DNA of 10,149 bases from an uncultured Gammaproteobacteria bacterium. GTDB taxonomy: Bacteria; Pseudomonadota; Gammaproteobacteria; Pseudomonadales; Azotimanducaceae_A. Below the pieces are notes generated by a model. That model searched no databases, was not told where the DNA came from, and worked only from the letters and a program-made list of their open reading frames with translations. The stretch lies in the NCBI GenBank assembly GCA_913049565.1, contig CAJWZG010000084.1:1-10149 (forward strand), given 5' to 3'. Shown piece after piece: positions 1,454 through 9,719 of this stretch. A program made the translations under genes and the position numbers. The first letter of the stretch is position 1, and each line of letters opens with the position of its first letter.

Positions 1454-3031
1454 GTGGCGACGCGTCTGGCTTATGAGCTTGAGAATTTACAGGGCGACTT
1501 GGTTTCCAGTCCGCAGAATGAAGGCTCGCTTGTCTGTTTTATCAAAGAAGATTGTCCCACCTGCAAAGAGGTTATGCCGGTACTCGATGCTCTTTATGAT
1601 CAGTTCGCCGCGCAGCTGCCGTTGCAGATCATTGGCCAAACTCAAGCAGGCAATGTGGCCCTTGCCAAAGAATTTTCGCCGGCCTTTTCAATACTCGATG
1701 ACAGCACTTTGCAGGTCTCTTTTTCAGCTGACATCGAGACCGTTCCCACGTTGCTTGTGGTGGATGCTGCCGGTCAAGAAACCCAACGGCTGGTTGGGTT
1801 TGTCAACGAAGAGTGGCAGGCATTGGCTTCCCAGCTAGAGTCGGATCTGGGTCTGGATGCCATGGTCTTAGATTGGTCCGCCCTGCCCGATTGGCGGCCC
1901 GGTTGTGGTTCCTTGTCCGTGGATCCAGCGAACGAGCCAAGGCTGCGCGCTATGGCCGAAGGCAGTCCCTTGCGGGCGAGACGGATCAACGTGGGCAGCC
2001 AGGACGATGATGCCGAGTTTATGTTTGATCAAGGCTTCTCCGATGGCTTGCCATTGGTGCCGCCAACGCCAGAGCGCGTATTGGCGATGCTGCAAGGTAG
2101 CCGGCGGGATGCCCAGCAGGTGCTTGGCGAAATGGCCCCCAACATGGGTGTGGTTACCGTAGAGAAGGTGGCAATCAATGCGGTTATGGCCGGGTGCAAG
2201 CCTGAGTATTTGCCGGTTGTCATAGCAGCGACTGAAGCGATCTTGACCGATGACTACAATATCCACGGCGTCATGGCGACCACGATGGGTGCCAGCCCAG
2301 TTTTAGTGGTAAACGGCCCGATTCGCCAGCGCATTGGCATGAACATGGGTCTGGGCGCCTTGGGTCAGGGTAATCGAGCCAATGCCACGATTGGTCGCGC
2401 AGTGCGGCTGGTGATACGCAATATCGGGGGTGCCAAACCCGGCGAGACCGAGCGCTCAACGCTGGGTAACCCGATGAAATTCACCATGTGTTTTGCCGAA
2501 TGGGAAGAGCGCAACCCCTGGTCACCGCTGCATGTAGAAAGAGGCTTTGAGAAAGACGATTCTGTGGTGACGGTGTTTACAATGAGCAGCGGTCCGACAT
2601 TAATCGTGGATCAAGACTCGCGCAGCGCATCGCAGTTGGCAGGTACTCTGGGTCAGGGTTTACAGGCCGTGATGAGCCCGAAAGCCTACTTTGCAACAGA
2701 CTGCTTGCTGGTTGTAGTGCCTGAGCATGTCGATACGCTGATGCGCGATAATTTCAGTAAAGAGAATTTGCGTCAGCGCATACAACAAGTGACAACCAAG
2801 TCGGTGAGAGAGTTAGTTGCAGACGAAAATTCCGGCACGGGCATTAAACCGGAAGTGGCGGCTGCCATGGATGAAGCCAGCTTGAACAAGCTGATGACGA
2901 AGTTTCGGCGTGATGAAGACATTCATATAGTGGTGGCCGGCAGCGAAGCAGGAAAATTTTCGGGCGCATTTCACGGCTGGGTTACCGGCAACGTTGGCTC
3001 GATACCCGTGTCGCGCAAAATTGAAGATTAG
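1454..3031 (+). CDS. thioredoxin-domain protein with large conserved C-terminal domain, UGSC partner
   Basis: This is a 525-residue two-part protein. Residues 1 to about 135 look like a thioredoxin fold: a beta strand (SLVCFI), then the active site C34-P-T-C37 followed by a helix, and VPT at about 97-99, where thioredoxins have their cis-proline. After a linker with CGS at 151-153, about 370 residues form a domain I cannot name. It contains FSDGLPLVPPTPERV (about 195-209), AGCKPEYLP (246-254), a Gly/Asn-rich centre and SSGPTLIVDQDSRSA (about 378-392). Other cysteines are at 28, 248, 345 and 417. No signal peptide or membrane span is seen, so it is probably cytoplasmic. I chose GTG 1454 because GGGGAGGG (1442-1449) stands four bases before it; a TTG at 1430 would add eight residues and put that site inside the gene. 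The UGSC selenoprotein gene follows after 87 bases with no terminator, so the two are probably one operon. The likely role is a disulfide/selenosulfide reductant or partner for it (inference). Confidence 0.85.
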   Translation: MATRLAYELENLQGDLVSSPQNEGSLVCFIKEDCPTCKEVMPVLDALYDQFAAQLPLQIIGQTQAGNVALAKEFSPAFSILDDSTLQVSFSADIETVPTLLVVDAAGQETQRLVGFVNEEWQALASQLESDLGLDAMVLDWSALPDWRPGCGSLSVDPANEPRLRAMAEGSPLRARRINVGSQDDDAEFMFDQGFSDGLPLVPPTPERVLAMLQGSRRDAQQVLGEMAPNMGVVTVEKVAINAVMAGCKPEYLPVVIAATEAILTDDYNIHGVMATTMGASPVLVVNGPIRQRIGMNMGLGALGQGNRANATIGRAVRLVIRNIGGAKPGETERSTLGNPMKFTMCFAEWEERNPWSPLHVERGFEKDDSVVTVFTMSSGPTLIVDQDSRSASQLAGTLGQGLQAVMSPKAYFATDCLLVVVPEHVDTLMRDNFSKENLRQRIQQVTTKSVRELVADENSGTGIKPEVAAAMDEASLNKLMTKFRRDEDIHIVVAGSEAGKFSGAFHGWVTGNVGSIPVSRKIED

Positions 3032-3106: not shown

Positions 3107-3113
3107 AAAGGAG
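3107..3113 (+). promoter_or_regulatory. ribosome binding site that sets the UGSC gene start
   Basis: AAAGGAG lies five bases before ATG 3119. An in-frame GTG at 3116 is only two bases away, too close to be used well, so ATG 3119 is preferred. Confidence 0.7.
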
Positions 3114-3118
3114 AAGTG

Positions 3119-3637
3119 ATGACAACGTTGATGGATCCTACCGATGAACGGGTGACGGTTACACGGCAACTCACCCCAAGGCCAAATGCGGTAACGGGCC
3201 GCGTGGCACTTTTGGATATCTCCAAACCCAGAGGCAGCGTGCTGCTAGACCGTTTGGAAGAAGTGCTGGCTAAACAGCTGCCTGGCGTGACGTTAACGCG
3301 CTACGCCAAGCCAACATTCTCGAAGCCTGCGCCCGCCGCGCTGCGCGAGGAGATTCACCAAGATAACGATTTTGTGATCGAAGCGCTGGCTGACTGAGGC
3401 TCTTGTACTACGTGCAGTTTGCATGACACGGTATGGTTTGAGATTCAGGGAACACCAGCAGTTTCTATTGCATCGTCTGAGTTTGTAACAGCGGCAACGG
3501 CGCAAGCCGATGCGTTGGGAATGCCGGACGCCCATCGGGTTTTCGTCCAGCACCCCATTCAAGATGCGACCGATGCTGAAATGCGCGATAAAGCCGAGGT
3601 CATCGTCGATCAAGTGCTGCAAGCGCTGACGGCTTAG
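3119..3637 (+). CDS. UGSC family selenoprotein (TGA 3395-3397 read as selenocysteine)
   Basis: Read with TGA 3395-3397 as selenocysteine, this is one 172-residue protein ending at TAG 3637. The frame is uninterrupted on both sides. The TGA falls in Ala-Asp-Sec-Gly-Ser-Cys-Thr-Thr-Cys, giving Sec93-G-S-C96 and a further C99. This is the defining motif of the UGSC family, whose non-selenium members have CGSC at the same place. The flanks fit too: RVALLDISKP near the start, FSKPAPAALREEI before the site, and SLHDTVWFEIQGTPAV then FVTAA after it. A U-x-x-C pair is a typical redox site that can form a selenosulfide. Without Sec the product would be a 92-residue fragment lacking the active site. 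A SECIS-like hairpin follows the TGA. The preceding thioredoxin-domain gene is the likely co-transcribed partner. The biochemical function of the family is not known to me. No selA, selB, selC or selD lies in the window, so the host must carry them elsewhere. Confidence 0.92.
3409..3433 (+). promoter_or_regulatory. candidate bacterial SECIS element
   Basis: Just inside the coding sequence after the TGA, TACGTG (3409-3414) can pair with CACG+TA (3427-3430, 3432-3433; G3431 bulged). The stem is extended by CA (3415-3416) with TG (3424-3425), leaving A3426 bulged. The apical loop is GUUUGCA (3417-3423), beginning with G-U about 20 bases from the UGA. A G at the start of the loop and that distance match the known pattern for SelB-binding bacterial SECIS elements. 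The folding was done by eye; an alternative GUGC/GCAU stem with loop AGUUU is also possible. Confidence 0.6.
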
Positions 3638-3650
3638 TCGTCTCGTTTTG

Positions 3651-3676
3651 ATAGGCCTCTGTCGGCAGAGGCCTAT
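3651..3676 (+). terminator. strong hairpin after the UGSC gene, probable terminator or RNA-stability element
   Basis: A perfect 11-bp inverted repeat (ATAGGCCTCTG, loop TCGG, CAGAGGCCTAT) begins 14 bases after the UGSC stop codon. The stem is GC-rich and very stable with a four-base loop. The following bases (TGTCACCC) contain no U-tract, and the other strand has none either, so it is not a textbook intrinsic terminator. It may cap and protect the selenoprotein mRNA, or partly terminate before the transporter gene that starts about 30 bases further on. Confidence 0.6.
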
Positions 3677-3706
3677 TGTCACCCGCGCCGTTAGCCCGGT
3701 TGCTGT

Positions 3707-7105: not shown

Positions 7106-7879
7106 TTATAGTGATGCGCAGATGTGGCCGCCATCGACCACCAGTACCGAACCTGTCATGTAGCGAGACGCGTCACTGGCGAGCAGCAGTAGCGGACCGT
7201 CAAGATCAGGGAACTCGCCTACCCGACGCATCGGTATCCCTTTGACAAAGTCCTCGCTGATGGGCGATTCCAACAAAATGCGGCTGACATCCGTTAGGAA
7301 GTAACCGGGTGCCAGAGCGTTAACGCGGATATTGTATTTTGCCGCCTCCAAAGACATAACCTCGGTCATGCGCGTCATGCCGCCTTTGGAGACCGCATAA
7401 GGGAATTGCCCTTTGATGGTTCTCGAATCAGTGATGCTGGAAATCATGATGATGTTGCCGCCGTCTTGCTTATAGGACAGCACACGGTCGGTGTACAGTT
7501 TTGACACCAGCCAAGCAGATTTTAGATTGGTATCCAGCACGAAGTCCCAGTCGTCTTCATCAATGGTGTGGTAAGTCTTCGCGCCGGCTTCGACACCGGC
7601 GTTGTTGATTACACAATCAAGCCGTCCGAAAGTCTCGAACGCGGTATTGAGAAAACCGCCAATGCTGTCTTTCTCCCGCACATCGAGACTGACCGCAATG
7701 GCCTTGCCGCCGTTTGCGGTAATTTCCTCTACACGCTCGGCGAGCTTGTCGGTGCGTCTCGCACCTAAGATAACTTTTGCGCCGGCCTCAGCGAGTACAC
7801 CGGCAAAGTGGTGACCGAAACCCGAGGACGCGCCGGTAATGGCGATAACTTGGCCGCCTAGATCAAATGGATGCTGCAT
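7106..7879 (-). CDS. short-chain dehydrogenase/reductase (SDR)
   Basis: This is a 257-residue classical SDR, an NAD(P)-dependent alcohol dehydrogenase or ketone reductase with a Rossmann fold. It shows the dinucleotide motif TGASSGFG (15-22), NNAG (92-95), N118, the catalytic Ser in MISS (S147 or S148), Y161-x-x-x-K165, and the C-terminal VLVVDGGH of the family. R41/R42 after the second strand (GARRTDK) hint at NADP(H) preference, an inference. ATG 7879 is preceded on the minus strand by a run of six G and AA (about 7885-7892) that can serve as ribosome binding site. It is the first gene of a leftward pair with the epoxide hydrolase and is divergent from the CoA-ester lyase gene. It could oxidise a diol or alcohol produced by its neighbours. 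Confidence 0.93.
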   Translation of the reverse strand: MQHPFDLGGQVIAITGASSGFGHHFAGVLAEAGAKVILGARRTDKLAERVEEITANGGKAIAVSLDVREKDSIGGFLNTAFETFGRLDCVINNAGVEAGAKTYHTIDEDDWDFVLDTNLKSAWLVSKLYTDRVLSYKQDGGNIIMISSITDSRTIKGQFPYAVSKGGMTRMTEVMSLEAAKYNIRVNALAPGYFLTDVSRILLESPISEDFVKGIPMRRVGEFPDLDGPLLLLASDASRYMTGSVLVVDGGHICASL

Positions 7880-7903
7880 ATATCGTTCCCCCCAATTCTG
7901 TCG

Positions 7904-7919
7904 ATCAGCAAATGCTGAT
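7904..7919. promoter_or_regulatory. candidate operator: 7+2+7 palindrome in the divergent promoter region
   Basis: ATCAGCA-AA-TGCTGAT is a perfect inverted repeat with a two-base centre, in the only gap between the leftward SDR/epoxide hydrolase pair and the rightward CoA lyase/hydrolase pair. It lies 25 bases from the SDR start and about 65 from the lyase start, well placed for a dimeric repressor or activator serving both sides. No regulator gene is in the window. I found no convincing -35/-10 pair here on either strand. Confidence 0.45.
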
Positions 7920-7984
7920 ACCCGTGAATGCTAATGCAAAATGATGTTCGGCGTGGCACTTTAGCGGGCGCAGTCGCAGGAGTG

Positions 7985-8866
7985 ATGAATAGCATGCAGA
8001 CAGGCCAAACCATCGTGCCGAGGCGCTCGCTGCTCTACATGCCCGGTGCCAATGCGCGAGCACTGGAGAAGGCACAGGCAATTGACTGCGACACGATCCT
8101 ATTCGACCTCGAAGATGCGGTGGCACCCAGCGCCAAGTCGCAAGCGCGTGAGCAAGTGGCTCATGCTTTAGGCAGACACCAATATGGTCATCGGGAGCTG
8201 GTAGTCCGCTGCAACGGGCTGGATACGCCTTGGGGGCTTGAAGATCTGCAAGCGTTCGCCAACGCGCCGGTGGCCGCGCTGCTCTTCCCCAAGATCGAAA
8301 GCAACGAGCAGATCAATCACATCAAGGAACAATTGGCATCGTGCCATTCTACCTTGCCCATCTGGCTCATGATCGAAACTCCGTTAGCGGTGCTGAATTT
8401 GGAGCAGTTTGCAGGCGATCCAAAGGTGGACTGTTTGGTGATGGGCACCAGTGATTTAGTCAAGGCGCTGCGCGCCCAGCACACGACCTCCCGCCACAAT
8501 TTAGCCTATGCGTTACAACGCTGCGTCACCGTCGCCCGGGCCTACCACAAAGACATCGTAGACGGTGTGCACCTCGATTTTCGTAATCTGGAGAGCTTTC
8601 AGGCCGCTTGCGAGGAAGGCAGGGATCTAGGCTTTGACGGCAAAACTTTGATCCACCCCAGCCAAGTAGCCATAGCAAACTCAGTATTTGGTTTCAGTGA
8701 CGCGGCAATCGCCAATGCGCAAGCCCTATTGCAGGCGTGGCAGCAGGCGCTGGATGCGGGTAAAGGGGTAGCAGAACTGAATGGCCAGTTGATCGAAAGT
8801 CTGCACGCTGACGATGCAAGGCGCATTCTCGCCTTCGCTGAGGCGATGGGTCTACGAGAGACTTAG
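7985..8866 (+). CDS. CoA-ester lyase, HpcH/HpaI aldolase and citrate lyase beta-subunit (CitE) family
   Basis: This is a TIM-barrel, magnesium-dependent lyase of about 293 residues that cleaves or condenses 3-hydroxyacyl-CoA esters such as malyl-, methylmalyl- or citramalyl-CoA. The family marks are present in order: RRSLLYMPG near the start, FDLEDAV (40-46), VVRCNG (73-78), PKIES (102-106), MIETPLAV with metal ligand E131, MGTSDL with metal ligand D157, GVHLDF (194-199), and GFDGKTLIHPSQV near residues 216-228. The start is uncertain. AGGAG (7978-7982) is two bases before ATG 7985 and eleven before ATG 7994, while ATG 7928 has no ribosome binding site and would add 19 residues absent from the usual N-terminus. 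No partner citrate lyase alpha or gamma (acyl carrier) gene is beside it, which favours a free-standing CoA-ester lyase over the citrate lyase complex. The hydrolase gene follows after 40 bases. Confidence 0.9.
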   Translation: MNSMQTGQTIVPRRSLLYMPGANARALEKAQAIDCDTILFDLEDAVAPSAKSQAREQVAHALGRHQYGHRELVVRCNGLDTPWGLEDLQAFANAPVAALLFPKIESNEQINHIKEQLASCHSTLPIWLMIETPLAVLNLEQFAGDPKVDCLVMGTSDLVKALRAQHTTSRHNLAYALQRCVTVARAYHKDIVDGVHLDFRNLESFQAACEEGRDLGFDGKTLIHPSQVAIANSVFGFSDAAIANAQALLQAWQQALDAGKGVAELNGQLIESLHADDARRILAFAEAMGLRET

Positions 8867-8906
8867 CGGGGATCCCGGGACAAAAAAATTGGATGTTGGA
8901 GCGAAA

Positions 8907-9719
8907 ATGTTAGACAGCGATTTCACAGGTTTTGTGCGGGCAAACGGACTACAGCTATATGTGCAACGAGGAGGGCTGGGTGAAACGCTGTTTTATATCA
9001 GCGGTACCGGTGGTGACCTGCGCAACAAGCCCAACCAGTTTGACTCACCTCTGGCGCAACACTTCAATTTACTCTGCTTTGATCAGCGCGGTCTCGGTCA
9101 GAGCGGTAAACCATCAGGTGAGTACACGATGGTGGATTACGCCAATGACGCTGCCGCGCTGCTCGATCAGATTGCTGACGAACCCGTGCGGGTCATCGGC
9201 GTATCTTACGGTGGCATGGTGGCTCAGGAACTCGCCGTTAGATACCCTGAAAAAATCCGCTCGCTGTTATTGGTATGCACATCGTCGGGCGGCGCAGGTA
9301 GGCCCTCCTATCCGCTGCACGAGTTGGAGGCGTTTGAGCCTGCAGAGCGCGTCAAACGCCACTTACAAATTTCCGATACCCGGCGCACCGATGAATGGAT
9401 CACTGAAAATGCCGAGCAATGGCATAAGCTGTTAGAAATGTCGTTAGCCGGACGTCGAACTGACCGGGACGAGGTGGGTGCTATGAAGCAACTCAATGCC
9501 CGGAAGCTGCACGATACCTTTGACCGACTGCCCGATTTAACCATGCCGGTGCTACTGCAGGGCGGGCTTTATGACGGGATTGCCCCGCCGGATAACATGC
9601 GGGAGCTGCAGGGGGCCATCCCTCACGCTGAGCTTCGTTTTTATGAGGGTGGCCATCTCTTCTTCATTCAAGACCGGCGAGCCTACCCGGATATGATTGA
9701 ATGGCTGGCGGCTCACTAG
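8907..9719 (+). CDS. alpha/beta fold hydrolase
   Basis: This is a 270-residue cytoplasmic serine hydrolase of the alpha/beta superfamily. It has the oxyanion segment SGTGGD (about 32-37), FDQRGLGQSGKP (58-69), the nucleophile elbow G98-V-S100-Y-G-G, the acid D223 in LYDGIAPP and the catalytic H250 in EGGHLFF. DQRGxGxS with GxSxGG and this length are shared by esterases, 3-oxoadipate enol-lactone hydrolases and C-C bond (meta-cleavage) hydrolases, so the exact reaction is open. ATG 8907 was chosen because GGAG (8898-8901) stands five bases before it; a start at 8814 would overlap the lyase gene by 53 bases with a poor N-terminus. It is probably in one operon with the CoA-ester lyase. Its TAG overlaps the stop of the convergent RND gene. 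Confidence 0.88.
   Translation: MLDSDFTGFVRANGLQLYVQRGGLGETLFYISGTGGDLRNKPNQFDSPLAQHFNLLCFDQRGLGQSGKPSGEYTMVDYANDAAALLDQIADEPVRVIGVSYGGMVAQELAVRYPEKIRSLLLVCTSSGGAGRPSYPLHELEAFEPAERVKRHLQISDTRRTDEWITENAEQWHKLLEMSLAGRRTDRDEVGAMKQLNARKLHDTFDRLPDLTMPVLLQGGLYDGIAPPDNMRELQGAIPHAELRFYEGGHLFFIQDRRAYPDMIEWLAAH

Follow-up and report, generated by a model that had tools for sequence, protein, structure and literature searches.

The gene described here is located in a window of 10,149 nucleotides (the whole stretch of DNA analysed) from an uncultured gammaproteobacterium (contig CAJWZG010000084.1) and occupies positions 3119..3637 of the plus strand, where it almost certainly encodes a 172-aa protein that adds a member to the known UGSC family of selenoproteins and has selenocysteine (Sec) at residue 93. 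A partner gene upstream on the same strand (1454..3031) encodes a thioredoxin-like domain followed by a domain of about 350 aa, here named CTD, and UGSC and CTD very probably form a functional unit. The best overall explanation of the two genes, held to be probable, is a thioredoxin-fed selenol reductase pair. What is added over earlier knowledge is a nearly constant partner, an optional built-in thioredoxin, a covarying selenocysteine insertion sequence (SECIS) and a fold that is likely not that of thioredoxin.

The UGSC frame opens with ATG (3119-3121), 5 nt after a Shine-Dalgarno-like AAGGAG that can be read directly from the sequence (~3108..3113, plus strand), and comprises 92 codons up to 3394, the TGA of codon 93 (3395..3397, plus strand) and a further 79 codons before the TAG stop (3635-3637). 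The preliminary description had reported two open stretches in one frame, parted by the TGA alone, and assigned them to the UGSC family; re-reading of the coordinates and of the junction, A-D-(TGA)-G-S-C-T-T-C, confirms the former, and the joint protein exceeds the cut-offs of both family models, Pfam PF24696 (UGSC; residues 4-171, E 3.9e-49, 167.5 bits, cut-off 25) and NCBIfam NF041046 ("UGSC family (seleno)protein"; 163.2 bits, cut-off 125). The motif, Sec-Gly-Ser-Cys with Cys in place of Sec in some relatives, is that of the UGSC family, and the in-frame TGA is flanked by conservation on both sides, as in bacterial selenoproteins. Conservation past the TGA, whose loss would have spoken against a single gene, continues: the invariant columns in an alignment of 65 sequences include G94, S95, C96, T97, C99, H102 and D103, and also H145, P146 and Q148.

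A scan of GTDB contigs confirmed at least 567 relatives, and the best 80 loci, a set that leans towards Sec forms near the query, were kept; according to their records, they belong to Gammaproteobacteria, Alphaproteobacteria, Chloroflexi, Binataceae and one deltaproteobacterium. Codon 93 is TGA in 80 of these 80 loci, 79 of them found by motif search and the last, L069, carrying the motif UGSCMTC. Cys stands at the same position in P0016, L114 and L131, so that homologs of both kinds, which an alignment had been expected to reveal, do exist. Among 398 Pseudomonadota genomes, TGA copies are found in three that bear SelA (G013, G164 and G021) and Cys (TGC) copies in two without it (G168 and G302). 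A protein search yielded 752 relatives among 968 candidates; among the 120 listed, the length is 94-105 aa in 98, and 107 stop with ...LAD at the very position of the TGA, which bears out the prediction that annotation splits or truncates the gene. In the longer database relatives the site is occupied by G (P0001), W (P0002-P0004), R (P0005) or C (P0016), and the W and G may be due to gene callers reading TGA under other codes. One locus, L055, comes from a record titled Klebsiella pneumoniae, a title that may be mistaken: the record is a metagenome assembly, and its UGSC and partner are similar to those of uncultured gammaproteobacteria.

In bacteria the SECIS is a hairpin that closely follows the TGA and whose apical loop begins with G. 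Such a hairpin lies at 3411..3425 of the window (plus strand), 13 nt past the TGA, with a 6-bp stem (CGUGCA/UGCAUG) and a GUU loop whose G is nucleotide 23 from the U of UGA; a GUN-loop hairpin of 6 bp is likewise found soon after the TGA among the best 80 loci. Its identification is based on codon choice and covariation. In the window and 79 loci, 80 segments in total, Cys99-Ser100 is TGC AGT without exception, and of 532 Ser codons elsewhere in the same genes 8% are AGT. All six pairs are kept in 46 of the 51 distinct segments passing the motif filter and the GU loop start in 47, the exceptions including USTC variants in which, as judged by eye, the hairpin may be shifted. In 17 segments hand-chosen for diversity, 99.0% of cells are paired, four of the six pairs show changes on both sides, and the covariation score is 0.353 versus a shuffled mean of 0.099, with none of 500 shuffles as high. 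The SECIS, not mentioned in the preliminary description, is an independent line of comparative evidence for Sec. The fused copies of L138, L140 and L147 carry USTC instead of UGSC, with a hairpin that appears to be shifted.

The genes for selenocysteine synthesis and insertion were surveyed in related genomes (20 or 25). SelA and SelB exceed their cut-offs in 23 of 25 and 17 of 20, respectively, SelD is found in 24 of 25, and tRNA-Sec in 21 of 25 (18 of these at 62 bits or more); this tRNA family likewise exceeds its cut-off in 5 of the 14 genomes used as controls. In particular, G002 and G003, whose UGSC proteins are 93% and 91% identical to that of the window, possess selA, selB, selC and selD, and G001 (93% identical; an incomplete 1.8 Mb assembly) has only a SelA cut by a contig edge. 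Directly upstream of the partner and UGSC, on the same strand, four loci (L060, L062, L067 and L076) carry a pair of genes whose sizes fit SelA and SelB, and in L062 their identity is confirmed by Pfam. In many of the genomes G002-G013, G017, G024 and G025 the SelD open frame reaches ~670-780 aa, consistent with the Ndh-SelD fusion mentioned in the available text of PMC2398784, and elsewhere SelD has an in-frame TGA. The earlier proposal that the TGA encodes Sec93 is supported by TGA conservation, the SECIS hairpin and the sel genes of relatives, and the comparative evidence indicates that UGA codon 93 is decoded as selenocysteine.

The partner gene encodes 525 aa from GTG 1454, or 533 aa if TTG 1430 is the start, and consists of a TlpA/ResA-like thioredoxin domain (1454..1855, plus strand; CPTC at 1553-1564) and the CTD (1982..3028, plus strand), for which no convincing sequence match was found in Pfam, NCBIfam or the PDB. 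The partner was located in 76 of the 80 loci, always on the strand of UGSC (76 of 76), and the gap between the two genes is 200 nt or less in 74 of 75 measurable cases, with a median of 32 nt. UGSC occurs in 5 of the 398 Pseudomonadota genomes, a sample that includes its centre G013 and G021, both previously known carriers, and the CTD in the same five, all seven UGSC copies lying within ~125 nt of a CTD. In Chloroflexota, where 12 regions with 16 UGSC copies were picked by hand, UGSC and CTD form one frame, with the TGA read through, in eight copies and lie near each other in the other eight; the fused copies have more than 300 aa of conserved domain beyond the TGA. In L143, L144, L145 and G558 several UGSC-CTD pairs stand close together, and up to 11 UGSC matches occur in one genome of this phylum, which suggests paralogs with different substrates. 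From the linkage, the co-occurrence and the natural fusions we infer a physical complex. The new element, absent from the preliminary description, is that UGSC mostly adjoins, or is fused to, a ~350-aa CTD, with the thioredoxin domain as an optional built-in part; in the open-licence literature, as far as its accessible portions go, no function or defined partner of UGSC was found beyond a fusion with a domain "Unknown_1" in PMC2398784, which is not equated here with the CTD.

In the proposed mechanism, SelB-tRNA(Sec) would read UGA codon 93 with the aid of the hairpin after it, and the resulting UGSC protein would form a two-part enzyme together with the CTD encoded upstream, each supplying one half. 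Sec93, predicted by the structural model to lie at the N-terminus of the helix that follows the third strand and three residues before Cys96, would attack as a selenolate an electrophilic substrate held by the CTD; Cys96 would resolve the selenium adduct, a Se-S bond forming on turnover, and the CPTC thioredoxin domain fused to the CTD, fed by thioredoxin reductase, would re-reduce this bond. By analogy, the cycle would follow the general logic of the GrdB/PrdB reductases. A thiol reductase cycle of this kind is considered slightly more probable than its absence, and a GrdB-like reductive bond cleavage is regarded as doubtful. Thioredoxin-reductase-like genes were sought by tblastn in L001-L080 and L120-L149, loci that differ in flank length and in part overlap. 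A gene for a thioredoxin-reductase-like flavoprotein stands directly beside UGSC in L149, ordered CTD, UGSC, reductase and with its ATG overlapping the UGSC stop, and in L128, ordered reductase, UGSC, CTD, CTD; both loci have no thioredoxin domain. L132 has a similar gene on the opposite strand, ~2.3 kb ahead of the partner gene.

The genes flanking the pair in the window encode an acyl-CoA dehydrogenase, an MFS transporter, a TauD-type dioxygenase, an epoxide hydrolase, an SDR and a CitE-type lyase, and this arrangement is retained wholly or partly in close relatives; at other loci, among neighbours hand-picked for scanning, CoA transferases, acyl-CoA ligases, acyl-CoA dehydrogenases and an amidohydrolase were recognized. 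The neighbourhood therefore suggests acyl-CoA or xenobiotic catabolism and a substrate among carboxylic or CoA-linked compounds. After the two genes and before the next one lies a perfectly paired 12-bp hairpin (3650..3677, plus strand; -20.3 kcal/mol, z -3.2), right after the UGSC stop, with a UCGG loop and no T run; it may end or stabilise the two-gene transcript.

The abundance of CoA-ester enzymes among the identified neighbours is also in line with a different role, in which UGSC and CTD would constitute a non-redox enzyme (a lyase, transferase or racemase) that uses Sec or Cys as a nucleophile with no net reduction, the thioredoxin domain serving only to keep the selenol reduced. The residues invariant in 42 aligned CTDs, H95, H249, E248, K260, D210 and Q211, with no invariant Cys, would suit such acid-base catalysis; nevertheless, a redox cycle is suggested by the coupling to thioredoxin or thioredoxin reductase and by the resolving Cys, which lies three residues from Sec, and the non-redox role is judged the less probable, at about one chance in four.

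A lower probability is given to a thioredoxin-like fold for UGSC and a general role as thiol oxidoreductase or peroxidase, with the upstream gene doing no more than reducing it. This fold was suggested for the family in a 2008 ocean survey (PMC2398784, in the part of its text available), and the UxxC motif, similar to redoxin active sites, as well as the thioredoxin domain next door, agree with this explanation. The model predicted from 65 sequences (mean pLDDT 94.2) shows instead beta-alpha five times in a row, (beta-alpha)5, with a third strand followed by helix 94-109, and does not have the strand and helix order of thioredoxin; because this helix starts directly after residue 93, Sec93 is placed at its N-terminus. 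The Foldseek and VIA matches shown are to flavodoxin-like, receiver-like and lumazine-synthase folds, among others, and an hhalign comparison with the neighbouring thioredoxin domain gave 14.4 bits. Contrary to the 2008 suggestion, the fold predicted by the model is thus likely non-thioredoxin; furthermore, the up to 11 matches per genome and the co-inheritance with the CTD better fit a substrate-specific enzyme, and a general oxidoreductase is considered improbable. A genuine stop or a sequencing error at the TGA, with the two stretches as a broken gene, is extremely unlikely: even if the sel genes surveyed are those of relatives and the window hairpin on its own folds no better than shuffles, the TGA is present in 80 of 80 related loci, the SECIS covaries, the relatives possess sel genes and the fused copies continue for more than 300 aa of conserved domain past the TGA.

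The kinship to GrdB/PrdB was evaluated by hhalign. The reference profile comprised 19 PrdB/GrdB-like sequences of the same genomes; the six that were retrieved through their motif (L090, L091, L093, L095, L096 and L107) have their own in-frame TGA (UPVC) in UGSC-carrying genomes. The UGSC profile gave 33.2 bits, with Sec aligned on Sec and C96 on the second Cys, and a more diverse UGSC set 32.4 bits; the controls reached at most 26.5 and 25.2 bits with 100 and 60 column shuffles, 18.3 bits with the reversed profile and 20.6 bits with 27 other families. The profile similarity is weak and above the controls. That UGSC works like GrdB/PrdB is a reasoned proposal; that it is a GrdB is not claimed.

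Several results weigh against the reductase pair or against parts of it. The hhalign probabilities (49% and 42%, E-values 1.7e-4 and 2.7e-4 for the two UGSC sets, respectively) refer to a single comparison and not to a database search, and no UGSC match to PF07355 (GRDB) appeared in Pfam at E up to 10, where only PF24696 was listed and where the HMMER filters drop most matches above about 0.1. Thioredoxin-reductase-like genes near UGSC were found in 6 distinct places in roughly 100 loci searched, those of L024, L036 and L071 looking like ordinary trxB on the opposite strand. Four of the 80 loci, all from Chloroflexota (L041, L044, L049 and L056), show no partner in the flanking DNA examined, even with a broader CTD profile, and the co-occurrence in the 398-genome sample rests on five genomes. 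Several relatives have W, R, A, G or S in place of Cys99, so that only the UxxC pair is general, and L142 contains at 7238-9043, beside a TGA copy, a second, tandem fused UGSC-CTD copy lacking both Sec/Cys at the site and Cys96. Finally, two carriers of TGA copies among the 25 genomes show no SelA match: G004, a 1.8-Mb assembly, has only SelD of the four components, and G019 (Hyphomonas sp. CY54-11-8, an isolate draft) has no SelA, no SelB over the cut-off and a marginal tRNA match. In the same Hyphomonas strain (L068, 8540-9943) the partner gene is in two open frames while UGSC retains its TGA, due either to decay after Sec loss or to a fault of the draft assembly.

UGSC-containing proteins represent 8.2% of the selenoprotein genes in one ocean-sampling survey (PMC9402790, in the portion of the article available), and a 2026 review, in its accessible sections, lists UGSC among the selenoproteins with largely uncharacterised functions, in agreement with what the preliminary description stated for the family. 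The identification of a nearly constant partner domain, of a likely route for electrons and of a predicted fold that departs from the 2008 suggestion makes this function experimentally testable. Gene calling splits the UGSC protein; where UGSC and CTD are fused, the CTD lies past the TGA and would go unseen. As a speculative extension, UGSC and CTD could represent a widespread modular class of selenoenzymes, distinct from glycine and proline reductase and using the same selenolate chemistry, which would reductively cleave a carbon-heteroatom bond in organic compounds, would have diversified in Chloroflexota (up to 11 copies per genome) and would be powered by the built-in thioredoxin domain or by a neighbouring thioredoxin reductase.

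Compared with known systems, UGSC shares with GrdB/PrdB (PF07355) the UxxC motif, and the window protein also has the GrdB-type UxxCxxC (UGSCTTC), as far as the sources available describe it; in both, Sec falls on Sec in the profile comparison, and GrdB/PrdB act together with partner subunits, as is proposed for UGSC. Glycine reductase involves thioredoxin, according to the accessible sections of the 2026 review. UGSC differs from GrdB/PrdB in the missing PF07355 match and in its partner, the CTD, for which no relative was detected, GrdE/PrdA not having been compared nor GrdA searched for. The N-terminal domain of the partner has the fold and the CxxC of the TlpA/ResA thiol-disulfide oxidoreductases and differs from them in its fusion to the CTD. 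The usual clients of TlpA/ResA are cytochrome-maturation factors; the presumed client here is a selenoprotein. With respect to the UGSC family itself (PF24696, NF041046; the "UGSC-containing protein" of PMC2398784), the window protein is a full-length match with the Sec-Gly-Ser-Cys motif and Cys homologs and shows no difference, and the partner domain, the SECIS covariation and the predicted fold are additions to the description of the family.
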